Assembly (NCBI GenBank): GCA_021234155.1
Contig: JAJEKV010000053.1
Location: 6,277,424-6,341,423, forward strand
Direction: 5' to 3'
Length of the DNA stretch: 64,000 nucleotides
DNA from: Isoetes taiwanensis
Taxonomy: Eukaryota; Streptophyta; Lycopodiopsida; Isoetales; Isoetaceae
The notes under the pieces are model-generated. The model saw only the letters and a list, made by a program, of their open reading frames with translations. It did not search any database and was not told the origin of the DNA. The stretch's first letter is position 1, and each line of letters starts with the position of its first letter. Position numbers and translations under genes: made by a program. Positions 1-58,799 of this stretch are shown here, one piece after another.

Positions 1-2305
1 GGGGTTACGTATTGCCTGCGGTGAGCTTGCAGGCAGTGGTGCGTGCTCAGAAGAAGCAAAGGCGGCTGGATTGCCCAAAGAAGGAAATGACCATCATCAA
101 TTTGAGGAGATGCAGTGGGTTCACCGGCTACGTAATTACTTAGAACAAGCCTGCAAAAGGTGGTGGATAAGGAGTTCACACTGGAAGAAAATGGAAGGAG
201 CTGGCAGCATAACCATTGCTGCCTTTCACTCTGAATTCTCGTCTGTGATAATGTAAAGAATTTAGTGGTCCTGAACAGCTGTGACCGACATCCAGAGGTA
301 TCTCCTGCACACGCTCTCTCTTAGTATTCTGCATCACACCTTTACTCCTTGAGTCAATGAAAACGATTCTCGAATACACACCTAACTTGTTTGCACAGAG
401 AAGTGTATTCCATCACACTTTCGCTTCTTTTCTTTGAGAAGCAGCAGATTCTCGAATACATCATAACAAGAAAAATATTGATTACAATACTTTGTATTCT
501 AGAATAACTTTAGGTGGCGCGTGAAGATAGTTTACTCATGCTTTTCTTTCCAGAATCGGGCTAAAAGGTTGTGTTTTTCTTTTCTAGCCAAAAAATGTTA
601 TCACCGCTGACATAGTCTCTGATGGAGCAACTCAACGTGGAGACGTGAGGTGCAAGGCTTTTATCCCATAGCTACATCCGACGAGCGAGATAAGCCAAGA
701 CGCATCTAAATTTTAGCGATGGCGGTCACCGACCAAACACGCTATACTTACTTGCCCCGCTCTAATCTCCCTTTGTTTGCGTATCAAGAAGAAAATATGA
801 CCCGCCGTAAGGTTTGGCACCTTTGTCGATCGCACGAAGAAAGAACACCTGGCAGAGGAGAACTTAGATGTGGAGCCTGATTATGAAAAGTTTAATTTAT
901 TTGACTAAAAATAATTTGTTTTCCATCATCATTCACGGATCGACTTAATTTATTAGACAAGAAAGCCACAAGATTTCACACCGTGATTGCGGACCTTCCT
1001 TATGGCTTTAACCAGCGATCACTCACACGACGACTAGCCTTAATAATTGGGGAGTTTAACGCCACGACCAGATCAACAGTCACAACCCGCTAAGATCAAG
1101 GTCGGTCGTGGTTTCACTCGAGTAGCTTAATCCGCCCTCGTGGAGTCCACGCTTAAACTCACTTCGGATCCCCAGTAAGCTGGTTAAGTGAGGAATCGGT
1201 TTTGGTGAGTGTTTTATTCGTTGGGGCCGAGTTTTTGTTTTAGTTTCTATTCCGTATTATAATTGCCTTCACTTGTTCTCGAGCCATTTCTTGTTCCTGC
1301 TTTTCATAGTGACACTCACCATTTCGCTGGTGTGCAAACAAATATAAACTACCATGGCGGGCGGGCCGAGATTGCCGAAAGGCGCTGAATACCCATGTTG
1401 CTTATCGGAGTTTCGTTTGAAAAACGACCATGGAGCATTTTGAACACAAAGAAAGATGCTGCACTTTTCTAATGTGTTGAATTTCCACCGTGTTTGTGTT
1501 ACGTGACCCAGTGCATGGTAGAATTGTTAATCACTACCGTAAGCCCTGTGTGTTGATCAACCATCTCCTAGATATGCTTTTTACCGCCCAGAGATTGGCG
1601 CTTTGATGGCCTGCTCTTGTGGCAATAATAGCTTGTAATTTAGAAGGGCTTAATTGTGTGTGAAGAAAGGATATTGATAAAGGTTGCAGTAATTCATCAA
1701 GATGAGACTGCAGCCTTGGTTTACCCTACCAGATGAGTACTAAGAGTTAGGGGGCCAAATCATCCGATTTTTGCTAAGTCGACTCTTCCGAGATACAGCC
1801 TCCATTCACTAGCTCTTTTTAGAGGATGAAGTTTACTTTTGCGAGTCGAAAGAAGTGGCACTAGCTACCATTCCTGAAGACATCAGATAAGTAGAGATAT
1901 GGGTAAGGCATGTTAAAAGGATCGACCGAATCCACAATCAAGCAAAAAGCATGATGAAGACTTTGATTTGACCTTACCGGCTCCTTTCCAAAAACACACA
2001 TCGACTAATTATGTGATGTTACAATTGTATCATTGAAACACTCTTCATTATATAATAATTATTTTATTCACTACATCTGTGTTTTCAGATAGTACTTTTG
2101 AGAATACAGCATGTCTAATTCCTTCCTTTCTATGTTATTTTGGTAAATTCCGTTATTTTATACACTAGGCCAAAAATGAGGTAAAAAAAATTGCTTCATT
2201 GAATTCTAATTGTAGTGAAAAAGTGTCATTTTCTAGATCAGCTGTTTTTTCTAAGTGAATTTTGAACGGAGGCTGCACACTTGCTGACCTGGTAATCGTG
2301 TTCTC
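1..2305. other. Non-genic stretch, nothing recognised
   Basis: I read both strands and found only short open frames with no recognisable motif. The one at 71-256 (+) would encode 61 residues of ordinary composition but has no family I know. The sequence is AT-rich and not repetitive at the scale I can see by eye. It may be old transposon remains, but nothing supports a specific call. Confidence 0.5.
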
Positions 2306-3008
2306 GCTTATTCTATTCCTTTTCTATTTTCTTTATGTTTCCATTTTCCTTTCTCCTTCTCTTCCTTCCTCTTAATTTTCCTTTATTCCTTTCCTTTCTT
2401 TTTCCTTCCTTTCCACTGCTTTTTCCTCCTTTTCCCTTCTCCCTTCCCTTCCCCTTCCTTCCCCCATCGCTTCCTTTCCCTTCCCTCTTCCTTTTCCCCT
2501 TCATCGTTTTTCCCTTCCTTCCTTTTCCCTTCCTTTCCCTTTCATCGTTTTTCCTTTTCCTTCTTTCCTTTTCCCTTTCCCTTTTTCCCTTTCTATATCG
2601 TTTTTCCTTTTTCCCTTCCTTTTCCCTTTTCCCTTCCCTTTTCCCTTTCATCATTTTTCATTTTCCTTCCCCTTCCGCTTCCTTTTCCTTTCATCGCTTT
2701 TTTTTCTCCTTTTTCCTCATCTCCTTTCCTTTTTCCCCTTTCCCTTCCTTCCAGTCGATTTTCCCTTCCGCTTCCTTTTCCTTTCATTTTTTCCTTTTTC
2801 CTTCCCTCTTTCCTTTTTCCCTTTCCCTCTATAGTTTTCCTCTCCTTTTCCTGAATGGTTTTCCCTTCCCTTCTTTGCTTTTCCTTCCCCTTCATCATGC
2901 CTTTCCCTTCCCTTCCCTTCCCTTTTTCCCTTTCCCTTTCCCTTTTCCTTCTCCTTTTCCTTCCTTTTCCTTTTCCTTCCTTTCCTCTTTCCTTTTCCCT
3001 TTCATATT
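2306..3008 (+). repeat. Polypyrimidine tract (CCTTT/CCCTTT-like)
   Basis: About 700 bases are almost pure C and T on the plus strand, built from variants of TTTCC, CCCTT and TTCCCTTT. Rare interruptions such as CATCG or CATGCC recur at intervals. Long open frames on both strands (Phe/Pro/Ser-rich on plus, Lys/Arg/Glu/Gly-rich on minus) are a by-product of a stop-poor simple repeat and should not be annotated as genes. Such tracts can adopt triplex (H-DNA) forms. Confidence 0.9.
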
Positions 3009-3245
3009 GAAGTTTGCTAGTCAAGATGAAATTTTATGAAGACACGCACACATCATCTCCACCACATTATCAATCAACCTCGACCGTCCGACGAGGTGCT
3101 ATCCATTACACACACATACTCAGTAATGGTACCCAAATATTGTTGGGCATAAGTTAAACCTGTAGACGAAAATATCTATCTCGGGACCCTTTCATAAATC
3201 CATGAACAGAAACCATGTCCCATTGCCAACAGATGAGTTTTGAGA
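3009..3245. other. Unique spacer between pyrimidine tracts
   Basis: A short mixed-composition stretch interrupts the pyrimidine tract. It has no open frame or motif I recognise. Confidence 0.5.
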
Positions 3246-4672
3246 CCACACCCTTCCTTCCGCTGTCTTTGCTCCATCCCACGTTTCTTTATTCCCCATC
3301 ATTCTCTTACGCCTTTCTTCTTTTCCCCTTTTTCCTTATTCCCATTTCTTTCCCAGGCCCGCCTCTTTTCCCCCTTCTTTTTAACTCTTTCTCCTTCCAT
3401 TCCTTTCTTTCTTTTCCGCTTTTTTTCCTTTTCCTTTTTTAATGGACTTTTTCCTTCCTTTTCAAATTTTTCCCCTTCTTCCTAATTTTTCTATGTGCCC
3501 TTTTTTTCCTTTTTCCCTTTCCTCTTCCTTTTCATTTTCTTCCTTTTCCTTTCCTTTTCCCATGCCTTTTTGCCTTTTTTCCATATTTTCATGTGCCCTT
3601 TTCTTCCTTTCTCCCAATCTCTCCTCTTTTATCCCATGTTCTCCGCTTACATTTTCTCCCTTTTACCCTTTTTATTTCTTTCCCTCCTCCTCCCTCCATT
3701 CCATTTTCCTTCCTTTTATCCTTTCTTACCCTCTTCCCTTTTTCCTGCGGTTTTTTTCCCATTTCCCGCCTCTTCCTTCTCCCTTTTCTTTTTTTTCCTT
3801 TCCATTTTCCCGCGACCTTTTTTCCATTCCTTTTTTTTCCCACTTTTTTTTTTACGGTCCCATTTCCTCCTTCTTACTCCTCTTCCTTTTCCCTTTTCTC
3901 TTTTCCCTTATCTCTCTTTTTCTTTTTTTTTCTTTTTTCATTTCCATGCTCATTTTCCCTTGCTTTCTTTTCCTTTCCTCACTTTTCTATTCTTCCATTT
4001 TTCTCTCTATGCCTTCCTTCCTCTCCTCCCTTTTCTCGCTACTTTTTCCTTCCTTTTTCCTCCCTTGTCTCCTTTTCCTTTTTCTTGCCTTCCTTTTCAT
4101 CCCTTCCTTTCCATGTGTCATTTTTCCTTCCTTCTTTCCTTCCTTTCCATTTCTATTTCCATTTTTATTTTTAACACCTTCCATCCTTTCCCACCTTTCA
4201 CGGCTCCCTCCTTTCCCACCCTCTTCCCCTTCCATTTTCCATTCCATCTCTCTTTCCTTCCCATGCCCTTTTCCTTTTTTCCCAAATCTCTTTCCTTTTT
4301 CATAAATTTTTCCCATGTTCTTCGCCCTTCTTTCCATTTTCCTCTCTCTGTCAGGTTTTTCCTTCCCTTCGCCTCCTTTGCTTTTTCCTTTCCCTTTTAT
4401 TCCCCATGTCTTTTCTTCATCTCCACCATTTGTTTTTCCCTTTTCCCTTCCCTTTTCCTCCTTTCCTCACCCTTCACCTTTTTTCGTTGTCTTTCCTTCC
4501 TTCCTCCTCCCCTTTCTTTTACCTATTTTATCCTTCCCATACCATTTTCCCTTTCCTCACTCTTTTCCTCCCTTTTTCCCATAAACATTTTCCTTCCTTC
4601 CCCTTCCCCCTTCCCCTTCCTGCGGCCTTTATCCTTCCATTTTCCCCTGATCCTCCTCCTTCTTCCTTCTTC
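3246..4672 (+). repeat. Second polypyrimidine tract
   Basis: About 1.4 kb of C/T-rich sequence resembles the 2306-3008 tract but is more degenerate, with recurrent ATG-containing interruptions such as CCATG and CATTTCC. Hydrophobic Phe/Ser/Pro-rich frames of up to about 400 codons run through it in all three forward frames. That three-frame openness is the signature of low complexity, not of coding. Confidence 0.9.
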
Positions 4673-4954
4673 TTCAAGATCAAAGCTGCGACCATTCCAC
4701 AGCAGGAAATGCGGGCGATAAACTTTGACTGGCGTAACCTGATGATCTAAAACCATCCAAATTCAGGGTTTCATTCATGATACTTACGCTTATAACATTA
4801 TAATCTTATATTATAAAAGTTTTAGAAGCGATAGTTCAAATCAAACCCTAATTTAGATAGTTAGACGCCCGATTGCATTTGAAGGCCGAGATTTATCGTG
4901 ACAACTTCCCACCACCATGATTGGCTGCGCTCGATCTCTTAAGAGGAAAGCGGA
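4673..4954. other. Spacer between opposite-polarity tracts
   Basis: This 280-bp mixed-sequence spacer separates the pyrimidine tract on its left from the purine tract on its right. It would form the loop if the two tracts paired as inverted arms. No gene is visible. Confidence 0.6.
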
Positions 4955-6276
4955 AAATGGCGTAGCGCAAAAGTGAGAGGCAAAAAGGCACGGGCAAAAA
5001 AGGGAAAGACTGAAGGAAAAGGAAAGGGAAAAAGAGTACCTAAAAGGGAAAGAAAAGAAAGGGAGAAAAGAAGGAAAAAAGACACTATGAAAAGGAAAAA
5101 GGGGGAAAGGAGACTTGAGAAGGAAAAGGAAAGGGAAAAGAGCACCAAAAGGAAAGAAAAGAAAGGGAGAAAGGAAGGAAAAAGATTATGAAAAGGAAAA
5201 AGGGTGAGGACAAATAAGGAAAGAAAAGGGAAAGGAGGAAAAGGAAGAAAAAAAGGGGCAACGTAAAAAAATGGAATGGAAAAAAGTGTGAAAATGGAAA
5301 GGAAAAAAGAGAAGGAAAAAAAGGGTGGAAAAGAAAGAGGAAAAGGGGTATGGAAAAAGAGAAAAGGATGAAAAAAAGAAGGAAAAGGAAAAGGAAATGG
5401 AGGCTAAAAGGGAAAGTGGGGAAAGAAAAAAGAACACTGGAATAAGGAGGGAAAATGGAAAAGAGGAAGGAAAAAGGGCAACTAAAAACCTGAAGAGGGA
5501 AAGGTGAGGAAAGGGTAAAAATAAAGGGAAAAAGAGCATGAGGAAAGGGAAAAGAAAAAAAGAAAAAAGGGGAATAGGACGGGAAAAGGGGAAAGGGTAA
5601 GGAAAGGCGAAGAAAAGGCAAGTAAAAAAGTGAAAAAAAGGGAATGGAAAAAAATACATGGGAAAAAAGGGAAAAGGAAAAAGGGAAAGGAAAGGGAAAG
5701 GGAAAGGGAAAGGGAAAGGAAAGGGAAAGGAAAAGGAAAGGGAAAAGAGAAAAGGAAAGGGGAAGGAAAGAGGAAAAGGCACCTGAAAAAAATGGAAAGG
5801 GTGGGGAAAATGATGAAAAAAAGAAGGAAAAGGAAAAGTAAAAAGGAGGCGGAAAGGGGGGGAAGGAAAGGAAAAAAGGCATGAGAAAAAAAGAAAGAAG
5901 AAAATGGGAAAAAAAAGAGACATGAGATAAAGAAGAAGAGGGTGAGGGAGAGGAAGAAAACATAAAAAAAGGCGGGAAAAGGGAATGCAAAACGGCATGA
6001 GAAAGTTTGGAAGGGAAAAGAGAAAAGCAAAAGGAATGGGAAAAGGAAAGGGAAAAAAGATTATGAGAAAATGGGAAGGGTGGAGAAAGGTGAAAAGGGA
6101 AGGAAAAACCGCAAAAAAGGGGAAAGGGAAAGGAAAAAAATGAGAAGGAGAAAAGGAAGAAAAGAGGAGGGAGAAGAGGGTAAAAAAAAAGAGAGAGGGA
6201 GAAAAGTAAAATGTGCAGGAAAATAAGAAAAGGGAAAAAAAGAAAGTGTGTAAGAAAAATGAGGAAAAAGGATATG
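4955..6276 (+). repeat. Polypurine tract (GGGAAA/GGAAAA-like)
   Basis: About 1.3 kb are almost entirely A and G on the plus strand. The most regular part is a run of AAAGGG units near 5680-5760. The polarity is opposite to the tracts at 2306-4672, so read on the minus strand it is the same kind of sequence. Interruptions such as ATGAGAAA recur and mirror CAT interruptions in the other tract. Lys/Glu/Arg frames on plus and Phe/Ser/Pro frames on minus are artefacts of composition. Confidence 0.9.
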
Positions 6277-7880
6277 CGTGATAGAGCAAAAGGGAAGATT
6301 TATCAAATGCACAAAAACCTTATAGCCTAGCAATGATGGACTTGGTTTCTATTATATTAGATGTATAAAAATGAGTCCGAAATTCAATAGGTTTTCCACC
6401 ATTAAATGCTCTTAACATTTACCCAAAGAACGCCGGGCAACCATTACTAGTATAAGATAAGATGTTGCATGGTCACTTTTGGCATTGGCAATTTGTAGAA
6501 ATTTGGCATTTTGGGACATTTGCTAACAGCTCAAGCCTATTTTCTTATTTTGACGCTTATGTTACCGAGATGAACAATAGTAGTGCCAAAGAAACACGAG
6601 TAGTGGGATTATTTACTGTGTCGAGCATTCATCTTCAACTTCATCTTCTTCGGCCCTTCGTGGAAGGTACAGAAAAAGAGCTAGAAATAACCCCGTTGAA
6701 GCTTCCATATCGCCATCGCGGAAAGTTGTTGGTGCAATAAGTGTCGGGAGTTGCCACGCTCTTTATCATGTGCGATAAACAACACGCATAACTATATGGT
6801 ATGTGGGGCTTAAATAGGCCCCAACAAAAGTTTATCGGTAGGAATGCCAACGGAACAACGGTAAGAAAATGAGGTATGCTACATATATACCCCTCTAGGC
6901 ATTTAAACTAATTAGTTGACATGTGCATTTAGTTATTTTAAATGTTTGAATATGTACAATCATTATGTCGTGAACAAATAGTGGATGCCTATTTTTACAC
7001 ATATGACTAACCTAACGTCAGAAAGGTTAACACAATTCAACCACAAACTTCTAATGAGGAGCATACTCGTTTGCGCTATAGAGTGTGTTGAATTGCTTTT
7101 ATGTACATTTTAATATCTTATTTATTGTGTTGTTATTCCAATTGTATAATGTAATAGAAATTGTACAATGTGATGGATTTATATTTGTATAATGCATATG
7201 GTGTTCATATAATTGTTTCATAATATATCAAGTGTATGATCTTTAAATTACCACCTAACATAAAATAGCAACCGACATCTATATGTTCAGTCCCTCGTGA
7301 TGAATCATTGGATGAAGTTCAAACATCAAGTTCAAAGAATACTTTGTTTTGTGCGATGCTGGATACATGAAAACACCACAAATTATTTTCCAGCAGTTCA
7401 ACACCCTCGAAATGAGAACAATGGTGACAAGGTTGAATTCTACACAACGAGGCAACAACCCCATTGTTTCCAAATGCACGGTATCTCGCCTTTGCTGCGA
7501 TGTTTGTTAATTTTGAACCTCCCAACATAAAGCCGGCTGGAGCAACAATAGTGTTTCGAAGTTTTTCGTGTATGTACATATGCTCTTATAGATTTTTGTT
7601 TTTACAATGTTGCTACTAACAATATTAAAATATGAGACATGTACTCTAGTTTGCTAGACAAAATACTACCGTAAGGGCATTGCCTTCCAAAGTCAAGAAG
7701 AGAGGCAAGAGAATTGTTAAGCAGCATTAGGCTAGAATACACCAGTATACATGCATGCTGAATGATTGCATACTATTGATAGAACGCATTGGCGCGGGAA
7801 CCAATCATGCCCGAAGTGAAATGAGCCACTGTGATGAGGAAGGAAGAAGGTCAAAAGTGGCAAGGAAAACATTGGCGCCC
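6277..7880. other. AT-rich flank, no confident gene
   Basis: This stretch lies upstream of TNP2 copy 1. Short frames at 6462-6740 (+) and 7297-7530 (+) have no recognisable motif. By position they could be decayed N-terminal exons of the downstream element, but I could not align them to the family from memory. Confidence 0.4.
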
Positions 7881-19544: not shown

Positions 19545-22036
19545 GCCGCCCGATTCGGCCTAATGCTAACCTTTGACCTAGACTTTCTCCAAAAATTCAA
19601 AAATTGGGCCGTAGGCCGAGATGAATTAGGATCCGGCAAAAAATCAGAATTTATTTTCGCAGGCAATGCATTAATTGCGAATTTTTTCATGTGTTGCCAT
19701 CGAAAAGATGACTTCTAATCGCCATTATCGAGGAGGACAGTCCAAACTCCGCTCCGATTTATGCGCTTCTCGCCGCAGCCGCCAATGCCTAATTGCAATG
19801 ACCAGGACTCGTTTCAAAACGTAAAACCTTCTAGAGCCCGCAACTCGGGCCGTGGTTTACGCCGCTTTCTGAGGCCCTCTCCTGTCGATTCGCCGACCTT
19901 TCCAGACGCATGGTCTTTGAAGTGGAGTTGGGGGTGTTGACGGAGGAGGACCTAAAATCTCCTCCCGAGGTCGCTGCCCAAATTTCTCTCCCTAAGGCCC
20001 TCGGGAAGAACCTCCCCCTCCATCATCTGTAATGGACTCTATTTCGGGAACTCCGCGGGCCAAGCCACTCCTCGCCCCCAAAGTAGAAACCTTGACTCCA
20101 TCAACACTCGCCGAATCGTCTAGGACATTGCGATAACCAAGTTGGACGTGCTTAAGAGCAAAAAACGTAACTTTGCTCATTTCAAAATGAACCTCCTTCT
20201 AGAGCCCGGCAACAAGGCCGATGTGGTTTGCGATTCGGAGGCCCGCGCCGTAAGATTCGCCGACTTTCGCCGCCAGCCATGTCTTGAAGTTTTTGGGGTG
20301 TTGACGCCCCGAGTCCTAACACTAAAATCCTCCTAAGCCGCTTTGCCTCGTCCTCTCCCAAGGCCCCCGGGGAAGGATCCGCAACCTCCCTCTAACCGAA
20401 CCTTTTGATTTGCTCGCCAATGGACGTAATCGGAGATGAATTGATCGGGATTAAGTTCCTCAGGCTTAAGAAGGATCGCCCCCAAAACGTAAAACCCTTC
20501 TGAAGCCCGGCAAACTCCGGCCTGGCTTCTTGCGTGATTTGAGGCTTTTTCTTTGTCAGATTCAAATGTAGGCCGACCTTTGCGCCCGGGTCTTGAAGTG
20601 GAGTTGGGGGTGTTGACGTGAGCCGGACCCTAAAATCTCCCGAGGTCGCTTTTGCTTAAATTTCCTCTCCCTCAAGGCCCCCGATGGACGGGCCACCTCC
20701 CTCCGAACAAGGGACCGACTCGCCAATGGACTCAGAACGCCGACATTGCCCTGGGGACCAAGTTCCGCGGGCCGTAAGACCACCAACTCCAAGAAGCGCC
20801 AAAGTAGCTCACTTCCATCACACTCAGAGTCAATTGGCCTAGGATGTGCATGGATACCGGCTGTGGAGGGCGGAGTGTTTTTCTTTTTCAAAACCGACCG
20901 CGGTAACTTGCTCCCTAGGGTAATTTCGCCATTCCCGACGATTTGGTGGTCTATTTGCCATTCCCGAGCATCCCTGCGTCCGAAACGACAAAAATGCTAT
21001 GGTTTCTACAAGGCCGACATCGATGCCCCGCGGTTTGACAAGTTCTCCCGGACCGATCTGAATCTTTTTGACCTTCCCAAGAGGGGCCCCTGAACGGAGG
21101 ATCCAACTGGCCGGATAGGGGAACCGCCCGGGAGGGTGGTCATTAGCGCGGTACCGGGAGCCGCCAGAAGGGTCGCCTTCGAACTTTTTTTGATCCCGCC
21201 CCCCGGGTCCGGACTCTCCTCTTGTGAGGGATCCCCGCAAGGTCCTGGCCTCGTTTGACTTGGGAAGGGTGCCACTCGGTTGTTCCCGCAACGGCTGCCC
21301 CGACCGTTCTAATGCTAACCCTTTGACCTAGACCTTCTCCGAAAATTCAAAATTGGGCCGTGCCGAGATGAATTAGGGATCCCACGACGGCAAAAAACCG
21401 GAATTTATTTTCGCAATGCATTAATTGCGTAATTTACGAATGTCTTGCCATCGGCAAAGCCCCGACTTCTACTTGCCACATCGGGAGGAGGGAAAGGCCC
21501 AAACTCCGCCCGCCGGGCCTCTTGTTCGTATTCTGGCGCCGCTTCTGGCCAGGTCCCAAGTGCAATTTGTAGACCAGACTCGGCCCCAAAAACGCAAAAC
21601 CCTTCTAGAGCCCGGCAACCCACGTGGTTTACGCCGCGGGAGGCCCTCTCCTTGTCGATTCTACGGACTTGGCGCCGCGGTCTTGAAGTGGAGTTGGGGT
21701 GTTGACGCCGACTAAGGTGGACCCTAAAATCCCTCCTGAGGTCGCTTGCCCCAAATTTCTCTCCCCAAGGCCCCGGGGACGGACGGGCGACCTCCCTCTC
21801 CTCCCCGGGGACCGACTGACTCGCCAATGGACTCGAACGCCGACATTGCCTCGGGGACCAAGTTCCGCGGGCCGTAAGACCACCCAACTCCAAGAAGCCA
21901 AAGTAGCTCACTTCCATCACACTCGTAGTCAATTGGCCTAGGATGTGCATGCGGGATACTGTCGTGGAGGGCGTGAGTGTTTCCTTCTTTCGCAAAACCG
22001 ACCGTGTAACTTGCTCCCTAGGGTAATTTCGCCATT
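19545..22036 (+). repeat. Satellite array, left block (divergent edge units)
   Basis: This block holds about two and a half units of the same GC-rich satellite as 31592-55662. Shared landmarks include GCTAACCTTTGACCTAGAC (19563 and, with variation, 21310), AATGCATTAATTGCGAATTT, AAAACGTAAAACCCTTCTAG and GTTTACGC, GGAGTTGGGGTGTTGACG, and TAGCTCACTTCCATCACACT. The leftmost unit is much more diverged and is rearranged, with an extra partial copy near 20460, as expected at an array edge. It stops abruptly inside a unit, after GGGTAATTTCGCCATT, at the transposon insertion. Confidence 0.85.
22033..22036 (+). repeat. Target-site duplication CATT, left copy
   Basis: The satellite unit reads GCCATT up to the element. 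The same CATT reappears after the element at 31588-31591 and leads into CCTGACGATTTGG, the normal continuation of the unit. This shows a 4-bp duplication created on insertion. Confidence 0.8.
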
Positions 22037-22067
22037 AACAACGTCTTAAATTAAACGCACTTATTTT
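22037..22067 (+). repeat. Left terminal inverted repeat
   Basis: The terminus begins AACAACGTCTTAAATT and includes GCACTTATTTT. It is followed by an internal stem GCACTT / AAGTGC (22056-22076). About 77% of the 31 positions match the inverted right end. Confidence 0.7.
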
Positions 22068-22069
22068 AA

Positions 22070-22860
22070 AAGTGCATTTAAAAGATTCCTTAGAAAAAAC
22101 TGAATGAAGTCAGAAAAAGGCTCTTTTTTTCAAGACTTTAAATTGTTAATGCATGGCAGTATAAATTTGAGCACGTTTTAGCCTATTTTAATCATTGCAC
22201 GAAATTATTGATGAATAGAAGCTTAAAATTATGCATTTTTAGTATGCTTTTTCTATCTACATGATCACTCCAATAAAGAACATCTTACGACGTAGCAACT
22301 TTTACAAGAATTTCGTTAATGCATGAAGTTGCTAAAGAAAAATAGCATTGACAAAGGATCTTAAAGCGCATTCATCTCTATTAAAACTTCATTTGTAGAT
22401 TTACAAGCATGCAATCGAATTATTCTTCTTTAAGATTACTTAATTTGTTCACTTATAACCAAATAATCGAAGTGCTAGTCTCTTTCAAATAGTTTTTTAG
22501 GATTAAATGGTTGTTCTTGTCCCTTTTTTTTTAAAGAGTAGGATTCAAACAATAACCAATAAAAATTATCAATTTTAAGCTTCTACTAGTTGAAAGATGA
22601 CTGACAAAAAACATAAGGTTTAAAAATTATTCAACTAAAAGCACAAGACAATTCTTAAAACAAAAAGATCATAAGCATAATACTAAAGGAAAAAAACAAT
22701 CACAAAATAAATGACAAATTAATTCACAACAATAGTTCTTAAACTTCATATCTCAAGCAAATGACAAAATAGTAAAACGACTACCAAAGAAATAGAAATT
22801 TATAAGTTCTTAAACTTCGTGTCTCAAGCAAATATTAAACTACTTCAGTAATCAATGGGT
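22070..22860. other. AT-rich subterminal region of the transposon
   Basis: No gene is seen. A segment with AATGACAAA and TTCTTAAACTTC...TCTCAAGCAAAT is repeated near 22735-22765 and 22805-22835, a short direct duplication. Confidence 0.45.
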
Positions 22861-23105
22861 TCTTCTTCATCGGGGTTCCATTCTTTCTTTCTCCTCTTCA
22901 AGACCAATGTTTACTAAAGGAATTGTTGATGAAGCCTTAGGAGTTTCTTCAGAATTACAAAGAGCGTGATCAAGCTCGCAAAATCAACTCGCCATCGCCT
23001 ACCACTAGGTGGTGGCTGAATTTCGTGAGAAAGTTTCGCTAGATTTCCAATCAAGCTTTTGTCGCCTAACTCCCCGATTTTCATCAGGCAAGGACTCACA
23101 AGAAC

Positions 23106-23790
23106 TTATTCTTGTTTTATAAAACTAACATTATCCGGATCAATATCAATGGAGATAACATTTCTTCCTTTCTTAAGAGCACAAACCGCAGCTTGTCCCC
23201 GATCCAAAATGCATCCAAAGACCAACCACCGGTCTTGAAAACCAACTAATAAGCTTTAGAAATTAACTTCGGGCTTTTGATAATGTGACACTATTTGTCC
23301 CTCCTCTCGAGGATCTTTCAACTTTGAAGCATGTACCGGATAACAAAACACGTTGTTTGGTGGTTGAGTTTCATCCGCTGTGTTGTAATGCCGCATACCC
23401 CTTTACCATCAACACTATAATATCCAATATGGAGATGCTCAAACTTACTAACTAGACGAAGCTCCACCACCATTGCCTTTAACATTTGTTTTTATCCCGC
23501 AAGAACTTGAAATCGTAAACGTGAACCGTGATATTTCAAAATGAAGAAAAGTTTAAACTTACCACACACAACCCTCAAAACCAAAGATTGCATATTGTAG
23601 ACAATGGCTTTATCACGTATATTGTTTGAACATCCGAATGAAATAAAATTATTTCTCCAATAGGAGGAGGTGGTGACCTCTTTAAATCCTTCCGTAAATG
23701 ACTCCACCTCCTTCCAAGTAAAAGCCTTGTCATCAAAGCGATCGGCCCTTTTATCTTGAAGCCATAAGGTATATCAGCTATGCACAATGT
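23106..23790 (-). other. Methyltransferase catalytic segment (motifs IV, X/I)
   Basis: The domain part of the previous gene. Motif IV lies at about 23785-23761. Next comes WKEVESFTEGF and a Ser/Thr-rich segment to about 23640, then VFCYPVHASKLKD near 23345. The final part carries KPEVNF and the glycine-poor motif-I-like LDRGQAA, then VISIDIDPD. Compared with typical DPFxGSGT motifs the glycines are mostly lost, so the cofactor site may be degraded or divergent. Confidence 0.6.
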
Positions 23791-24665
23791 GAAGTTACGT
23801 GGTTGAATAACTTGTTTCAAGAACCCAGCCTCCAACTACGACTTTATATAATGCATCTTGATTGAAAAGATAGAAACTCTCAAGATCATTAGTCAAAAAC
23901 CTAGAGCGGCTTGACCTTCCTCGCTTGTGCTTTAAGCTTTTGCCTTTCTTCTTTACACCTTCTTACAAGGTTTAAAAATCCAAAGCAGTAATCCACTAGA
24001 CTTTTCTACGTAAAGAAGTTATTCTTTAATACTTAAATTGATATATTATGAAGTTCAAAAAAAAACATTGTAGTATAGAACTTATCTATGAAATTTGAAG
24101 TACTAACCCATTTGTCGGGTTAGGGGCATATTCTTTTATCAAAGCATCCGTGGTTGTCGGGCCGATAATTTGCTCTCATAGCCTTCCCAAGCATCCAGAT
24201 TAAGTGCTTTCAAAGAGCTCTAACCGGCAAGTTACAATATCTTTTTGTCTGTATGTAACAATAAAATATTTTAGAACATCTCTACCGATTAATCACAAAA
24301 ACAAACACCTTATCGCTTTGTTTCATTTGCCATTTCTTCTAAAGTAAACTCCTTAGCCACACGACTCTCTCAGAGAAGATGGACTAGTAGCTCTTTGTCC
24401 TTAATTCCTTGAAGAGAAATCCAAGGAACAATAGTCATCTCCTTCACCTTAGCAGGTTTAGATAATTTCTTGCTTGCCTTAGGCGCTTTTTCCACTACAG
24501 ATTTTGTCTTTAGCTGGTTGTCTTGAAACATGGAAAAAAAATTTTCTTGAAGTTCCCATATCTGAAAAAGCAAACTATTAGTGCCAGAAGTTGCCATTTG
24601 TTTAACTACAATAAGAAAACACTGGATGGCAACATCCACAAAACTATGCACTTATTTCTAAGATT

Positions 24666-24995
24666 TTATGACAAGTAACGTAACTAAGTGCACGCAGTAT
24701 GAATTCATACACTAGTTTTTTAACACAAGCAATAAACATGCCAACTTCAGTTTTGAATGCATACCTTTTGTAAGATTTTTTGACAAGTAAGTACTGTAAA
24801 TGAGTGCACGCAGTATGAATTCATACACTAGCTTTTTAACACAAGCAATAAACATGCCAACTTGAGTTTAAATGCGCACCTTTTGTAAGATTTTTGACAA
24901 CTAGTACTATAAATGAGTGCACGCAGTATGAATTCATACTAGCTTTTAAACACAAACACTAAACATGCCATCTTGAGTTTAGATGCAGACCTTTC
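24666..24995 (-). repeat. ~115-bp tandem triplication within a methyltransferase-gene intron
   Basis: Three copies (about 24666-24765, 24770-24880, 24883-24993) share AAACATGCCA, GTGCACGCAGTATGAATTCA and TTGTAAGATTTTTGACAA. Each contains one perfect 14-bp palindrome GTATGAATTCATAC. On the minus strand each copy starts with a donor-like AGGTxTGCAT or AGGTGCGCAT, so the intron start may itself be duplicated. It lies between the ParB-like exons and the linker exon. Confidence 0.8.
24697..24939. promoter_or_regulatory. Three palindromic sites GTATGAATTCATAC in the intron repeats
   Basis: Exact 14-bp perfect palindromes occur at 24697-24710, 24813-24826 and 24926-24939; the last extends to 16 bp (AGTATGAATTCATACT). 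They match the palindromes in the intergenic centre of the element, arguing for a recognised site rather than chance. Confidence 0.6.
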
Positions 24996-25999
24996 CACTT
25001 CTGAAGGCTAGTTGAAAATAGTTGTCAAACTTTTAAAGCACCCGGTGGGTGATGATCACTATCATACCGAGGCAACATTCGCTACACAAGTTTCCCCGAG
25101 CTCAAGGAGTGTACCATTCTTTCTAAAGTCTTCACCGTGAGGTCTGCTCAAAGTTTATAAATTCTCGATGCATAAAGCGATCCGATCAATGAAACTCATT
25201 TGAGGCGTGACTCATTATCAACATTATGAGAAATGGCTAGAACTTTTGCTTCTTCATCCGTTAGACCAACATAAACCTTAGCTTCTACCACTTTCCAAGC
25301 GGTGATTTTTGTCGCCTTCTTTCATTAGTTCCTTTCTTGCTTTGTAACCGCGGTGTTCCACCCAAGACATAATACCGATAGTACTCAAAGTCAGCCTTAT
25401 TGTACTCTTTTTAGAGATGTACATTGATTTGGGTCAACCATAACAATCATAGGAGTGACTATCGCTTCTTGGTTAGCCCTCATTCTATCTTTTAGAATGT
25501 CAACGCAGAGGCATATAACTTCCTAACTTGCAGAGGCCTTTGCCCGTAAGCCGCCTTTGGGAGGTCTTTGATTGTAGCTGTAGAGAGCCTCATCAGATCA
25601 ACAACACGCTTGGTTGCATTGACATAATTCAACAAACTTTGTGCTCCTATCAACTTCCTTACTTTTAATCACACATCCAGAGCTCTTTTTTCTCCTTGGG
25701 CACTTCGATCCCTCAATGCGCTTGTACCTTCCTCTTCCTTTGCACAACAATTTCTTTGACATGTTTTTTTTGTTTTTAAGCAAGTCCTTATCCAAAGGTT
25801 TCTATCTAATTCTCCACCATCATCTCCGCCCTCTTCCTCTTGACCGCTTGCTTCTTCGCCTTCTTCCCCACTCAATTGTTCTTTCTCCACTTTTCACTCC
25901 TCTCGATTCATCATCTGGGTAGACTTTACCTACCTTAAGTATCACCGCTGAATTACAAGCTTTAACATTTTGGAGGACATCAATAATATCCTCGTTGCA

Positions 26000-27200
26000 C
26001 AAAGTTATCGGGCTTGAACATTAAAGTAAACAAACTAAATTGACAAGATTTTACAAAAGTTTTAACACCGCACGGATGTACTCCTTCAAATCAGCAGAAA
26101 ACACAATGACATCTTCATGAAAACACTATTTAAAACAATTACGCCTCTTTACCGCTTAATTATCCAAATACCACTTGGTTTGCGTAATCATTCCTCTTAA
26201 TCGAAAAATTCTTCCGTGGACATAAAAGTCATCCTTCTTTAAAGTTTCTCTCGCCAGAGATGGTCGTTGTCCAAAGAAATAAGTCGTATGGATGCTTGTC
26301 TTGAAATCCTCTAGAAAGAAACCATCGGTGATTTAACATTTTGTATCCTTTCAAATTTTCTCCGTATGATTTTAAACTTCATTTTAGGCGCTTTTATCGC
26401 ACAACAAAGCTTTTGTTATGCAAACTAATTTTGCGTAAGATATTTGATTCAACAAAACCAGCCAAGTGTTAAAATCAATCATCAAGTCCTTTTGCCGAAA
26501 AAAATGTGGAAAAGCTACTAAAAGTGCAAAGAAAACCGGGCCGATTTCATCACTTTTTCATAATTTCCTTGTTGTTCAGACGCCAAAATATCTACTCTTA
26601 TTAAGTACAAAGATGTGCCAAATTAACAGTGAATTGGCTTATTCTACTACCGATTTTGCTATTTCTACAACAGATTTTTATGATTCTACAGCCGATTTTT
26701 CAACTTCTCATCTGATTTTTCAATTGTTCAGTCCGTTGTCGATTTCCTGGAAAATATTGCTGATGTTTGTAATCTAGTCTACAGCTGCAAAAGAACGGCC
26801 AATTTTGATTGTTTTAATTACGCTTTTGGAGATTTTGCTGTTCTACATGAAGTCTGGCACAGAACAATTTTTAAGTTGCAAAATCGATTTCTTTGTCGCT
26901 TCGGATTTCTTTTTCAAAAAAATCGATTTCTCGCTGCACGTTTCGTTTCTAACGCCGATTCGCTGCTTTTAACCTGGCGCTTGAAATCGAATCCTCGCTT
27001 TAACCGGGCCGATTTGGCCTGCTGCCGATTCGGCCGATTCTCACGAGGACGCTTGATTCTCGGCCGTTGTTGGTTTCCTTTAACGCCTGGCCTTAAACCA
27101 AGAGTTTAATTGCAAGGAAAAGGGACGGTTGTTGTTGCACAACGTCCAACATGTTAGGAAATTTAAAAAGATAGAATGTTTTTAGCAATTGAGATGTTAT
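26000..27200. other. Upstream region of the methyltransferase-like gene, unclear
   Basis: The only repetition is a CTAC(A/T)(A/G)CCGATTTT-like motif three times near 26640-26705 and scattered CGATTTC motifs to 27020. On the minus strand the repeats would read KSVVE/KSAVE, similar to the KSVVEKAPK piece in the linker exon near 24500, so further N-terminal exons may lie here. I cannot resolve them. Confidence 0.3.
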
Positions 27201-27234
27201 TTTAAGGATGGCACTTTGAGAAAGAAAAGGAACC

Positions 27235-27952
27235 GTATGAATTCATACCATACAACATTTTGCCTTCTAATCTAAGACAGAGAAACTTCTAGAAATGCAC
27301 TTTTTGGGATTAATTAATCCCGCTTTTACTCTCTCTCTTGGAAAGAGACTCAGATGAATTTATACCGGGCCATCTACGCCTTAAGGGTGTCAATGCCTTA
27401 AAGTTGTGAGCAGAATATTCAATAACACATGATGGTATAAATTAATACCACCACTAAGATAAATTCATACCACAAACTTATTCTTGAAAACCTCAAAGGT
27501 ACAAGTATAAATTTAAAAAGGAATATTCTGAAGAAAAAATGAAAAACGCAAAGAACATTAAGAGTAAATAGGTCGGCGCGACGTGGCTCACTCCGGTCAT
27601 GTCCCAGATATCGGCTTTTTATAGGTCCACTTCTATGGTGAAGAAGACTATTCAATGAGATGCCGTTTTGGTGAAATTTTATGATGTAAGAAATGAGAGA
27701 GAGTTAAAGTATTTTGGTATGTTTTTTCATCTCGATTTTAATTGTGCATTGCCATAGAGTTGCGTGATACGGGAAGTTGTTTACAATTGTTGAAATTGCT
27801 ATTTGTATTTGGGATTGGTATGAATTCATACCGCTTTGCTCTACTTAACCCTTCTAGGATCAGGGTTTGAGTGTAGCATTGGTATAAATTTATACCGCCG
27901 CTTGTACTTGTTCGTCGGGCCTAAAACAAAGGATCTGGTAGAAATTCAAACC
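27235..27952. promoter_or_regulatory. Cluster of palindromic sites GGTATGAATTCATACC and variants
   Basis: Sites: 27235-27248 (GTATGAATTCATAC), 27434-27449 (GGTATAAATTAATACC), 27817-27832 (GGTATGAATTCATACC, perfect 16 bp), 27881-27896 (GGTATAAATTTATACC, perfect 16 bp) and a degenerate one at 27937-27952. Half-sites occur near 27353-27366 and 27461-27471, and an unrelated perfect palindrome GGGATTAATTAATCCC is at 27306-27321. They occupy the gap between the two divergent genes. A ParB-like or other element protein could bind them to regulate both promoters; that is inference. Confidence 0.6.
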
Positions 27953-27990
27953 AATGCTTTTTAAGGAGATGGAGACATCACATTCTACTA

Positions 27991-28345
27991 GATTTCCACC
28001 TCCAATGCGGTGTCACCCCCTCCACAAAATTGCACATTCCACCTCCAATGCAGATAACACTGATACACACAACCGCCAAAATTCCGCCTCCCATGCAAAT
28101 CACTCCTGCATAATAGCTTTTGTTACCCTCAATGGAATTCACTCCACCACGTTGTATTAAAATTCCACCCCCATGCAATTTACTCCGTGACGAGACAATT
28201 TTTGCTTGTAAAGGCACACTTGACAAAACAAAGTATTCCAAGCAATTCTTCTTTGCCACTTCTACCGCTTTGGCACACTACATCGATGCAATGTCTTTTT
28301 TGCCACCACCAATGCAAGTTACTCCAGACAATCCAACATGAATCC
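27991..28345 (+). repeat. Irregular direct-repeat array ATTCCACCTCCAATGCA
   Basis: At least five copies (27991-28008, 28036-28053, 28081-28098, 28161-28177, 28298-28316) of a TTCCACCTCCAATGCA-type motif, often followed by TTACTCC or CACTCC, lie on the plus strand immediately before the transposase-like gene. Spacing is uneven (45-130 bp), so this is not a CRISPR. It may be the promoter or transposase-binding region. Confidence 0.6.
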
Positions 28346-28479
28346 ACCCCCCTCAGATTCCACTCGATTGATACAATTGACATCTTAGAATCCCTTGAGA
28401 AGGAACCCTCAAAATGAAGCAGATGTTGCCACAAATTCCTTTTGTAATCCTAGTCGGGCCGAGCAACGCCATCCTTTAA

Positions 28480-31130
28480 TGGCTTTCCAGTGTGCTTCAG
28501 ACTTTCGAGTCCTTCCAAGGTCGCTTTTTCCGAGGGTGGACGCCTCAACAAGGTAATCAACCTACACAATTTGAAGTACCGTAGCGGGGCCATTTCAGAT
28601 GAAGATGATTTAGAAGAGGATTCGTAACATCGTGGCAAACCGCTTGAATTCAAAGAACCTAGGAGCAACAACTTTAAGAGAAATCAGACAAAAGGTTTAC
28701 TCACTACCTGAGACGCCACGACTCATGGATGAGGCAAACTTAAGGAAGTCGCGACATCCAACATTGTTGTAAGAATAATTGTATTTCAAAGATAAGTTTG
28801 AGAGAGTTGAGGTTACTACGCGGATCACTATAAAGGTAAATGACTTTTAAGGACCAAAGAGGTTATCCGCATACAATATAAGGCCCGACAGAGGAGACAA
28901 GTTTTTTTATTATCAGAAGGAATTGAAGTTTGTCGACAAAGATTCAAAAATCATCCATTGTTTAGGAAGGTGAGACTAACAAGGTTGAAAAAAAGGCTCG
29001 ATAAGAATCCACTAATTAATGATTACCGCCAATCCGAAATGTTGTGACTACTCATGCTCTAGAATGTGTAGCTTGATGGAAAACTTCTTCAAAGAATCTT
29101 GTGAAAAGTTGCCCAATAGTCCAATGTACCATTTGAATGATAATTTCACAAAACGTGAAGTCTACAACAACTACAAAGAAACATGCCTAGAATCCGTGTG
29201 CGCCAAGTTTCTTATTCACATTTCACGCTTTTGTGGAAGAAAGAATTCGCCGTGTAAGGATTCCAAGAAAGCATCAGATGTCGGGCTTGTCCACACATAC
29301 CGAAGTTGAAGGCTAAGAGGCAAAGTGCAAAAACTTTACATGTTAAAAGTAAGATAACAAGAATCCTTTTTATTTTTGTATTCTCCTAGAAGTTTGTCCG
29401 ACAACTATTTTATGTGTAGATGCACTCAAGGAGCAACTTAATAAATAATGTGGAGCGGATACAATTGTTAGAAAGAAGAAAATTGTCCAAGCACGTAAAA
29501 AGTCGCTAGAGAAGCCCCTTCAAGATCTTCAGCTTGTAATAGATGGCATGGATCAAAAGAAAACGACGATACTTCACTTTGTGAATGTGCCTAAGGATCT
29601 TCCAGAGCAAGACTTCATTCACCTACATGTTGTTGGCGCTAATGATTTTTTTCTCGTAAGCTTCGTTGTAAAGCTTTTCTCAATTATCCAAATCTTCAAA
29701 GTTGATCCAAATCTTGTAGTTACAATTTTGCACAAGATTCTTTGTAGCTTGAAAATTTACCGCCAAGTGTTATACCTTCAACCGACAACACTACAAGAGA
29801 AAATAAAATCAAGTGGTCTTTGCTTATTGTGCCATGTTGGTCGAGAAACAAATCTTTAAGAAAGTAAAGATTGGTTTTCTACTAGTTGGGCACACGCATC
29901 CACCAAATTGATCGATGTTCAGCAGATTCTCCAAACGCCTTGCTAGAAAAAGGCGTTTACTTTGCCAACAATGGTTGAAGTTATCAAAGATTCTTATAAT
30001 CCCTCAACCGTAAGTTGAGCTAATCGAGGAGACTTTTGATTTTAGAGAGTTTGTATTTCGCAAAGATGGAGATGGTTGTGCTATTGAGCCGTTAAGGAAC
30101 ATCACATTTCAGCACCATGCAAAGTTCTTCTTACAAAATAGCAAGACCTTATTACAAGGGAAGAAATATGCTACATCACGAGAATGGTTACCAAAGGATG
30201 GTCTACGCTTATTCGCTATATTCCCGATCCTAATACTATGATGTTGGCAAGAGCAAATGCCCCTCAAGAATCTATTTGAGATAACCAAGAGTCACAAGGA
30301 AAAAAGAGCATTTGATCCAAAAAAATCCTTAGATGCATTTGAAAGAAGTATTAAGCTTTGTTATAATCACTTTGATGAAGCAGCTTGTTTGTGGTGGAGT
30401 TCTTTCTTTAGTAAGCAAGGCAACCTTTCCAAAAGATGGCACTAGGGCCAACAACAATTGCATTCCAAGTGGGCCGTGAGAAAAGATCTCATATGCTTGC
30501 AACCGATGATGTAGCAATAGACTAAGTTGAACAAGTTCTCACCAGACGAGGAAGGTCGTGGTAATCGCATACTGTGCCCCTAGAAGAACAAAGACAACAA
30601 GAAGCTAGAGTATCTGGAAATACTTCAGAAATACAAAAGGGAATGCTAGTTGCTGTTTTGGCAGATGATGATGAGGAAGGCCGAATGTTTTGGTTGGCAA
30701 AAGTCCTTGATGTTGTTCGCGAGGAGGGATTACCCACACAATTAAAGGTGCATTGGATGAGAACTACATCAAAAAATGCATTTGATGGACTGTGATGACT
30801 TTGAGATGTTGAACTAATAGAGGCAAAAAGAGCAAGAAGCACAAAGAAGAACGGATATGCTTCATCTCTCAGAAGTAAAAATCCTTGCATATGACTTTAC
30901 CCTGAAAGCCAACAACAGACTGCGCGAGACTACTAAAAAGCTACTAAAATCTGCTTGTGGTCTAGGTGAGTCGTCAAAAAATGTTGACAATGTTGTCGAT
31001 GAGAAGATGACATTTTACTAGTGGATGCTGATGAGGAGGACCGCTCCAAAGACATCCACCTCCTCGATAGCGAGGCACTAGACACAAACAAAGGATAATA
31101 CCGACCACCTGTCAACTAACCGATGATGAG
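28480..31130 (+). pseudogene. Transposase-like protein with probable D-D-D core (DUF7869-like family)
   Basis: The plus strand encodes an interrupted protein. A Cys/His-rich N-terminal piece (KCCDYSCSRMCSLMENFF, REVYNNYKETCLESVCAKF, about 29040-29260) is followed by IDGMDQKKT (first candidate Asp, 29539-29562). Next come IHLHVVGA and DPNLVVTILHKIL, then DNTTRENK (second Asp, about 29784-29807), and a GHTH...QID...MFSRFS block (about 29887-29935, third Asp in a shifted frame). RNase H-like transposases use such a triad for strand transfer. I recall this D...LDN...ENKN...GHTH-x-x-ID pattern from an uncharacterised family in eukaryotic genomes listed as DUF7869, but could not verify it. After ITFQHHAKFFLQ and EWLPKDGLRLFAIF, a C-terminal module FWLAKVLDVV...LKVHWM (about 30690-30760) resembles a small SH3/chromo-like barrel, then an acidic tail. 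Several frameshifts and stops are present. Confidence 0.65.
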
Positions 31131-31134
31131 ATAG

Positions 31135-31555
31135 ATCCCGTGACTAGCAAAGAAAGTCAAATTATGTTAGATAACGCTTATTTTCAAGATATAGTTTATT
31201 CTTGATAATTGCAAAGTCGCATACATTTCATAATTAATATGTTTTGTGTAATCTTGTAGTGTCTCTTATAAATTTCTATTTAAAACTACTTTGTGCCACA
31301 CATCTTTACTTATAGATTTGAGATATTTTCATTTTACTACCATTAGAGTTAGGGTGCTTTTTATTTTTTTGTTCCATATTTAGTTTTACAATTTAGGTTA
31401 GGAACAAAAAAATATGCCTTCAAGTTTTTACACAAACCCAAAATAGGGTAAAAAATTTGTAAAATGTCTAAATTATCAATATTACCACAAAAAATAGCAA
31501 GAAATTTCTTGTTTTCGTGGGGAATCTTTGAATATTCCTTTGAAGTGCATTTCAT
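31135..31555. other. AT-rich right subterminal region of the transposon
   Basis: No gene is seen. AGTGCATT occurs twice near the end (about 31544 and 31563), resembling the AAGTGCATTT in the left subterminal region. Confidence 0.5.
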
Positions 31556-31556
31556 C

Positions 31557-31587
31557 AAAATTAGTGCATTCAATTTTGAACGCTGTT
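31557..31587 (-). repeat. Right terminal inverted repeat
   Basis: Complement of the end reads AACAGCGTTCAAAATTGAAT..., matching the left terminus at about 24 of 31 positions. The element ends in CGCTGTT and is followed at once by the CATT duplication. Confidence 0.7.
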
Positions 31588-31591
31588 CATT
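31588..31591 (+). repeat. Target-site duplication CATT, right copy
   Basis: CATT followed by CCTGACGATTTGGTGG restores the satellite unit exactly where the left block stopped. Confidence 0.8.
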
Positions 31592-57193: not shown

Positions 57194-57288
57194 GCACGTC
57201 GTTTAACACAAAGACGTCGTTATAGACGTCGTTTAACGACTATTGCACGCCGTTAACGACCTCACGACGCCGTCGTTCAACGACGCGT
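57194..57288 (+). repeat. ACGTCGTTTAACGACG palindrome array
   Basis: CACGTCGTTTAAC, GACGTCGTTATAGACG, TCGTTTAACGAC, GCCGTTAACGACC and CGTCGTTCAACGACG are packed in under 100 bases. These match the array at 62705-63180 and may be the left subterminal or internal promoter array of the same CACTA element. Confidence 0.6.
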
Positions 57289-57900
57289 CAGAACTTTTTA
57301 TCGTAAAGCGAAGCCGGCTTTTCCGCCGCCTAGTTTTTTTTGGTTCTAAGCGGCCGGAGGTTTTTTTTGGGCGATTTTTGGCGCGGATCATCCTTGCGGT
57401 CCTTTCCAAGCTTCAAGCAAGCATCCAAAGGTATTTCAATGGATCAATCAACTCTATTTTTGAATTAGGCTTGTTGTTTGATAGATTTAGGGCTTCTTGT
57501 TTTTTCTTGTTTGTTTTCAATCCATCCCATTTCTATCCTCCTCTTCTTTCCATCCTTGTTTTTCTTCAATCCATTTCGCCTCTTATTAGTATGAATCGAA
57601 TCCTCCTCCTTCTTCTTCCAATCATCTTCCAATCATTGGTTTCTTCCTTCTAATCTTCCGTTCTTCCAATCTTCTATTCATTTTCTTCTTCTTCTTCTTC
57701 ACCACTTTCTCATTCTATTCAATCTTTCTTTCCTATCTCCCCTTTCTTCTTCTTCTTCTTCTTCTTCTTCTTCTTCCTCTTCTATTTTTTTTCCATGGAA
57801 GAAGGACGTCGTTGAAAGACGAGGCCCATTCTTCCTCTATTTTTTATTACAAGAAGGGGACGTCGTTGAAAGACGAGGCCCCTTCTTTTTATGTTCTTCC
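57289..57900 (+). other. Pyrimidine-rich region with CTT microsatellite and GACGTCGTTGAAAGACG pair
   Basis: A plus-strand frame (57243-57653) is hydrophobic and pyrimidine-driven and not convincing as a gene. A (CTT)n run spans about 57680-57785. Two copies of GGACGTCGTTGAAAGACGAG lie near 57804 and 57856, separated by about 52 bp. The layout could be a transcribed leader downstream of the palindrome array. Confidence 0.45.
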
Positions 57901-57998
57901 TTTTTTTTTATTTTCATTTTTTACATGTCAATATATAGTTCTTTTTAATTAACAATGTAAATAGTTTTAATGTCAATGATCTTTTCAACGTGAATGGT

Positions 57999-58021
57999 CT
58001 TTTTTTTTTTTTTTTTTTTTA
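57999..58021 (+). repeat. Homopolymer T tract
   Basis: A run of about 22 T in an AT-rich region; no function inferred. Confidence 0.75.
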
Positions 58022-58203
58022 TTTATTTCTTTATTTATGTAAGTTTTCTAATTATTGAATGCCTTTATTTTTTTGCATGTACACTAATAACAAAATGCGT
58101 CGCTCTTGGAAATCGATTTTCGCAGCTCGAAGACATTCTAGGTAAGAATTTGAGTTTGAGTAGGAGAATAAAATTTTAATGTTTTATTTAGGTTAAAAAA
58201 AAA

Positions 58204-58580
58204 CTTGGGGAGACTTGGACAAGGGCATGGTCGGCCCGCCTTTGAGTGGAGAAGACTAGGTGTTCGAGGTCCAAGCTCACCGCTTACTCTTTGTAATTTT
58301 ATTGATTAATGTATTTAGTTTAGAAAAATTGGGGAGACTTGGACAAGGGGCATGGTCGGCTCCGCCTTTTGAGTGGAGAAGACTAGGTGTTCGGGTCCAA
58401 GCTCACCGCTTACTCTTGTAATTTTATTGATTAATGTATTTAGTTTAGAAAAATTTGGGGAGACTTGGACAAGGGCATGGTCTATCCGCCTTGAGTGGAG
58501 AAGACTAGGTGTTCCCGGTCCAAGCTCACCCACTCTTTGTTTTTTTTTTTATTAATATATCAATAAATAGAAATCTTTAC
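58204..58580 (+). repeat. ~125-bp tandem repeat (three copies and a remnant) with hairpin motif
   Basis: Copies begin near 58204, 58329 and 58455 with TTGGGGAGACTTGGACAAGG, and a remnant (TTGGACAAGGGCGGTGG) lies near 58583. Each copy carries GGTCGGCTCCGCC...GAGTGGAG then AAGACTAGGTGTTC and GGTCCAAGCTCACC. The motif closely resembles the hairpins in the leader at 12067-12226 (GGTCGGCTCC...GGAGAAGACTAGATGTATCGGG), linking two otherwise different elements. Confidence 0.8.
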
Positions 58581-58799
58581 TGGATTGGACAAGGGCGGTG
58601 GTTTTTGAAAAAAATTGCATTATTGATTTTCGGGTTTCTAGTTAAGAATGTTGTTTTTAAAGATGTTAGGGATGTCAAAGAAACACCGATGTGGAGTGGT
58701 TAAGAGCAAGAAAAATTTAAATAGTTGGTTTTAAAAAAAAAAAAAAAATTAAAAGGGAAACTAACTCTTAAGAAAGTAGGTAAAGATTCATAATGAAGG

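Follow-up and report, generated by a model that had tools for sequence, protein, structure and literature searches.

The stretch of DNA analysed here (the window) comprises 64,000 nucleotides of the Isoetes taiwanensis genome (C1060:6277424-6341423), and the genome searched amounted to 1,658,258,908 bases in 1,110 contigs. Between positions 22037 and 31587 the window holds a DNA transposon of 9,551 bp that splits a 1.1-kb satellite in register. Comparison with uninterrupted satellite units showed that the two satellite halves end at an identical phase and that the tetranucleotide CATT is duplicated, at 22033-22036 on the left and at 31588-31591 on the right, where it was also read directly from the sequence. 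The satellite comparison also placed two imperfect terminal inverted repeats, one at 22037-22084 on the plus strand (beginning AACAACGT) and one at 31538-31587 on the minus strand (beginning AACAGCGT). A matching unit is present in contigs C1037, C919 and C924 (the left end of the C924 copy lies outside the sequence compared), and the ends in C1037 and C919 are identical in kind to those of the window element. Among the copies compared, those in C1037, C919, C924, C1034 and C829 align across most of the element at ~81-93% (the last three each covered without one element end), while the remaining copies are shorter or interrupted. Gene content is common to the long copies. Target site duplications of 4 bp flank all three copies in which both ends are visible (CATT in the window, ATTG and AACT in C1037 and C919) and, because of these duplications and of the shared content of the long copies, the gene described below is carried within a cut-and-paste-type element, as the preliminary description had proposed in calling it a cargo or accessory gene. 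A target site duplication of 4 bp is a feature of the Sola superfamily, with which the three copies would agree. PMC9033089 includes land plants among the hosts of Sola elements and names Physcomitrella Sola1 as an example.

The interrupted satellite consists of tandem 1.1-kb units, GC-rich (~58% GC) and ~84-90% alike, at 20476-22036 and 31588-55667. Elsewhere in the window, the region 2300-6300 has a T/C-rich first half and an A/G-rich second half, which gives an inverted-like polypyrimidine/polypurine block, and ACGTCGTT-type motifs, partly in tandem units of 33-54 bp, recur at positions 57200-63180. Outside the window, we observed a pair of full-length open rbcL-like genes (L047 in C1052 and L048 in C840) that differ from each other. 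The solved chains nearest to the Rubisco large subunits of this genome are green-type Rubiscos, in line with a photosynthetic host.

The element contains two divergent genes. The one on the minus strand has five exons, whose splice sites were read from several copies. Exon 1 (24991-26020, with a provisional start) encodes a ParB-like domain at about 25640-25150 and is homologous to natural open reading frames of 335-371 amino acids in C1034, C1037 and C1059, its frames being broken in the window. Exon 2 (24314-24561), with a putative helix-turn-helix recognized by eye, and exon 3 (24108-24248) were delimited from where the motifs fall in the window and in better-preserved copies. Exon 4 (23563-24005) carries the motif IV region of a methyltransferase (CIADIPYGF) and corresponds to natural 147-amino-acid reading frames in C1034 and C919, and exon 5 (22845-23496) carries the motif I region, which reads AFSGSGT and DIDPD in better-preserved copies. 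Intron 1 (24655-24994) is built of three tandem 116-bp units with one GTATGAATTCATAC palindrome each. The gene on the plus strand is transposase-like: its exon a (27969-29348, start placed by eye) matches a 494-amino-acid natural reading frame in C1034, and its exon b (29420-31174), which contains DUF7869, matches one of 600 amino acids in the same contig.

The window copy of the ParB-methyltransferase gene shows stops, frameshifts and altered splice sites, and none of its 10 single-frame pieces gave a relevant match against Pfam. Since the assembly was made from polished nanopore reads, according to the accessible text of PMC8566536, some of these defects may be sequencing errors. The six peptide strings on which the gene was originally recognized all lie on the minus strand in the order claimed, in different reading frames owing to the broken copy and the introns. 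In better-preserved copies of the same genome the pieces become continuous: L009 is a 371-amino-acid natural reading frame with the ParB-like part, and L002 one of 231 amino acids with the C-terminal half of the methyltransferase. The layout is also constant, as the 10 of 150 listed ParB matches that have a listed methyltransferase match within 6 kb always have it 1.8-2.2 kb downstream on the same strand. Because spacing and strand are constant, the ParB-like and methyltransferase parts are supported as one gene region, in agreement with the preliminary description, and we rejected the possibility of two unrelated genes. In L054, a Copia-like polyprotein fragment, identified by eye, occupies positions 1979-2345 (minus strand), at the expected place of the upstream ParB-methyltransferase exons.

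The methyltransferase assignment rests on the L002 exon, the homologue of exon 5, which matches PF01555 with E=6.9e-18 and 65.8 bits (cut-off 26.7), and which retrieved the solved enzymes MboIIA (1.2e-8) and CcrM (1.3e-8). Motif IV lies N-terminal to motif I, the former in exon 4 and the latter in exon 5, so that the motif IV-first amino-methyltransferase recognized by the first reading is upheld. It resembles the beta-class enzymes CcrM and MboIIA in this motif order and in the PF01555 match of its C-terminal half, but differs from them in that the domain is split over two exons of a eukaryotic gene and in its motif IV tetrapeptide, which is DIPY in the copies read. The usual catalytic forms are DPPY or SPPY, and catalytic activity is for this reason uncertain. 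The motif I region is kept in most of seven aligned methyltransferase exons. An alignment of the methyltransferase exon yielded 29 pattern stretches in genome contigs and 64 in viral contigs, and for the ParB exon 3 pattern stretches were found in viral contigs; none of them was upheld by tblastn. These searches gave no confirmed relatives, and thus identified no bacterial donor.

The ParB-like domain is assigned with moderate strength. The preliminary description had read the order and spacing of a ParB N-terminal domain and proposed a check against PF02195, which matched neither in the genome-wide family search nor in the ParB exons scanned; L009, the ParB exon of the window family, matched no ParB model in Pfam, PHROGs or NCBIfam. 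The similarity to ParB came instead from the diverged exon L057, clearly homologous to L009, whose sole NCBIfam match was TIGR03764, the ParB of PFGI-1-type integrative elements (E=1.4e-4, at 21.6 bits far under the curated cut-off of 143.75). In PHROGs an unknown-function family came first for L057 (4.7e-4), followed by ParB-like families in second and third place (0.0057 and 0.31). A tblastn search of L057 against plasmids returned 10 records, mutually related and with E from 0.04 to 6, of which all 10 are annotated as ParB family protein, and a profile comparison with three plasmid ParBs gave E 3e-4 with a probability of 40, while the methyltransferase control gave E 0.21. The similarity to TIGR03764 and to the plasmid ParBs is weak and collinear over ~107 residues, and the three plasmid genes differ from the Isoetes gene in being annotated as ParB only, with no fused methyltransferase. 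Structure models of the ParB exon were too poor for reading a fold (mean pLDDT 38.5 for the exon alone and 46.0 with 11 rows), and a fold search with such a low-pLDDT model as query gave no significant match. Against phages, tblastn with the ParB part gave two weak matches for L009 (E 7) and none for L057, and a sequence search of the PDB with the ParB part found chance matches only.

The 600-amino-acid reading frame of C1034 matches DUF7869 (PF25273) with E=2.5e-54 and 184.3 bits (cut-off 26), while the window fragment does so with E=0.017; a literature search found no publication on this domain. Among 300 listed ParB or methyltransferase matches, 51 have a DUF7869 match, out of 150 listed, no more than 15 kb away (some elements entering this count twice), and 50 of these 51 are divergent from their DUF7869 neighbour. 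Counted in reverse, 45 of the 150 DUF7869 matches have a ParB or methyltransferase neighbour. Under random placement, using rough contig extents, the average number of the 300 that fell near DUF7869 was 2.15 and the highest was 7. An element with both genes in divergent linkage is therefore demonstrated in the sample examined.

The gene family is very large. A DNA search with the window gene gave at least 57 matches with 40 of 322 candidates scored. At the protein level, all 150 candidates scored matched both for the methyltransferase exon (of 3,159) and for the L057 ParB exon (of 3,283), and in the DUF7869 search 150 were scored of 9,902 candidates, so that the copy counts of ParB, methyltransferase and DUF7869 are lower bounds. 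Identities to the methyltransferase range from 52 to 100% among the matches listed, and 122 of the 150 listed ParB matches are stop-free by hand count. The window copy is a decayed member of a very large two-gene DNA transposon family.

Comparison of copies revealed purifying selection between them. Between C1034 and C1037, omega (Nei-Gojobori) was 0.18 for ParB (369 codons), 0.10 for the methyltransferase (127 codons) and 0.15 for the transposase (599 codons), while in shifted frames ParB and transposase gave 1.0-3.8 and the methyltransferase had no computable value. In the set of open exons chosen from the L loci, from which pairs under 80 codons and poorly aligned columns were removed and in which pairs with saturated dS have no omega, values among L053, L054 and L055 were 0.10-0.11. 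Some exon pairs had higher values, namely 0.50-0.51 (methyltransferase and ParB), 0.63, 0.65 and 0.82 (the last with only 4 changes). Comparisons with C919 gave 0.40-0.47 in frame and 0.59-1.00 shifted, and those with the window copy 0.38-0.68 in frame and 0.53-1.11 shifted. For the window methyltransferase exon one shifted frame (0.53) falls under the true frame (0.68), in keeping with a copy in decay.

The element also contains clustered 16-bp palindromes. Allowing up to 3 mismatches, and with the element end set at 31584, three bases short, we counted 11 GGTATRAATTYATACC sites in the element and 0 in the remaining 54,452 bp of the window; 100 shuffles gave a mean of 0.11 and a maximum of 2. 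Four of them lie in intron 1, one at 24696-24711 and others starting at 24750, 24812 and 24925, and seven form a cluster between the divergent genes (27234-27952, with starts at 27234, 27351, 27434, 27456, 27817, 27881 and 27937), of which those at 27817 and 27881 are exact. In the five copies compared (C924 and C1034 being incomplete at one end, and the window element again taken to end at 31584), the outer parts of the element, 2.6 kb at its start and 3.6 kb at its end, have no palindromes, which argues against terminal transposase sites. A ParB-like protein gene and clustered 16-bp palindromes, which are candidate sites, are thus present on the same mobile DNA.

Related elements have their own arrays. 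In L053, a subfamily with 60-66% identity in the ParB part, 4 kb of sequence contain 14 sites with up to 2 mismatches, mostly intronic and often 28-29 bp apart, and GGTATRAATTYATACC-type sites number 5 in L054, 7 in L056 and 3 in L055. At L053:2063-2186 the spacers between palindromes are partly palindromic too (CCGTGCCCTGGCACGG), and intron 1 of the L053 subfamily consists for the most part of inverted repeats strung together. In L057, with a ParB part 50-59% identical to that of the window family, the 1.5 kb examined held no GGTATRAATTYATACC-type site, and the second intron contains three TGTATTCCAGAATACA-type palindromes ~41 bp apart.

Genome-wide, where the pattern counts are complete and the lists of places partial, GGTATRAATTYATACC has 7,350 exact sites (0 for the reversed control) and TGTATTCYRGAATACA, the palindrome of the diverged L057-type subfamily, 6,021 (2 for the control). 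At 98 places (53 on one strand and 45 on the other; 0 for the control) the exon-2 donor anchor of the L057 type has the core of its own palindrome 30-60 bases further on; the core of the other subfamily's palindrome follows this anchor 0 times in the whole genome. For 17 of these 98 anchored sites a neighbouring L057-type ParB exon is among the 150 listed. Each of the 17 shares the strand of its exon and is 0.4-0.9 kb away, measured from the exon's lower coordinate, with distances consistent per strand. On contig C1, a listed L057-type ParB exon has five TGTATTCYRGAATACA-type sites within 0.6 kb and two more ~5 kb upstream, and the matches listed for this contig include no GGTATRAATTYATACC site. 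Different ParB-methyltransferase subfamilies therefore carry different 16-bp palindromes alongside the gene, and subfamily specificity is shown in one direction of the cross-test, that of the L057-type anchor.

On these grounds a prokaryotic-type gene for a ParB-like protein and a beta-class amino-methyltransferase is supported, from sequence comparison, as an accessory gene of the transposon. We consider it somewhat probable (about 55%) that the palindromes are parS-like self-recognition sites of a self-marking ParB-methyltransferase in this two-gene transposon. The ParB half would recognize the 16-bp palindrome arrays in the element's own introns and in the divergent promoter region, and the tethered methyltransferase would add 6mA or 4mC to element DNA. 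Such methylation would keep the element expressed or tune its own transcription or transposition, with feedback on the divergent promoter; binding by ParB, catalysis and a benefit to the element are all predictions from the sequence. A wider version, to which we give somewhat less than even odds, is a eukaryotic self-recognition of the ParB-parS kind in which the ParB-methyltransferase of each subfamily is matched to its own arrays, enzyme and site co-diverging, and in which the subfamilies together would seed heritable 6mA or 4mC at thousands of sites in a vascular plant genome, either to counter 5mC silencing or to serve as a switch of copy number.

The strongest competitor, which we regard as rather unlikely, is that the transposase, or a DNA-binding protein of the host, uses the palindromes as its sites, the ParB-methyltransferase acting elsewhere. 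Seven of the 11 sites lie between both genes, a natural position for a transposase or host regulator, and the transposase may also vary by subfamily, in which case ParB is not the only protein to which the subfamily specificity could point. However, sites occur inside the ParB-methyltransferase introns in the three ParB types examined (the window family, L053/L056 and L057), the ends of the window-family element have no palindromes, and ParB proteins are known for binding to arrays of palindromes. Less probable still would be a protein with a catalytically dead methyltransferase half that does no more than repress or activate the divergent promoter through its ParB-like part: the unusual DIPY of motif IV speaks for it, but the conservation of the motif I region in most of the aligned exons and the low omega among L053, L054 and L055 speak against it.

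That the gene is a non-functional passenger dragged along by the transposon seems very improbable. Many copies, that of the window included, are broken, and omega is near 0.4-0.8 in some comparisons, but it is 0.1-0.3 in many and well under 1 for both exons in several, and most of the listed ParB matches are free of stops. Bacterial contamination or an assembly artefact has next to no probability; the source plants were non-axenic, according to the accessible text of PMC8566536, but the introns, the insertion in a satellite array and the presence of copies on many megabase-scale scaffolds led us to reject contamination. The reading of the palindromes as self-recognition sites of the transposon's own ParB-methyltransferase can then be compared with what is described in other systems.

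The closest of these is Sola1-1_Ec32 of the brown alga Ectocarpus, in which, following the available text of PMC12477816, the transposase is accompanied on the other strand by an accessory gene, whose product combines a ParB-like domain with a DNA methyltransferase predicted to produce 4mC or 6mA. Its authors suggested that proteins of this kind act on the transposon that encodes them, by binding and modifying it, and similar proteins are reported there from green and red algal transposons. As in Isoetes, where the gene is known from DNA only, both domains occupy one gene region inside the element and divergent from the transposase. Compared by description only, and as far as the available text goes, Sola1-1_Ec32 differs in its algal host and in its size (21.5 kb vs 9.55 kb), and its description in PMC12477816 mentions no palindrome arrays. 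A mobile DNA that has clustered palindromes and also encodes a ParB-like protein recalls ParB-parS partition as well, but here the partner domain is a methyltransferase and binding is predicted. A further parallel is VANDAL/VANC in Arabidopsis anti-silencing, where a transposon encodes a sequence-specific protein that changes how its own copies are marked epigenetically; VANC belongs to a different protein family, and the ParB-methyltransferase would, in contrast, add a mark. A literature search, thin on subscription journals, found no ParB-methyltransferase transposon of vascular or land plants and no matched palindromes, and the plant and family terms looked for were not found in PMC12695648, a survey of eukaryotic 6mA. 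ParB-methyltransferase transposon genes are thus already known from algae, and what is new here is the palindrome arrays with their subfamily match.

Self-marking is something that we infer, and the subfamily-specific palindromes give it a concrete, testable form. If true, it would be a natural case of sequence-guided DNA methylation in a vascular plant, with target sites that can be read from the sequence, and the speculation about self-marking by algal transposons would become a directly testable claim. It would also predict the locations of 6mA or 4mC in a land-plant genome, a contested subject, and would supply ParB variants together with their matching sites for work on the evolution of recognition.
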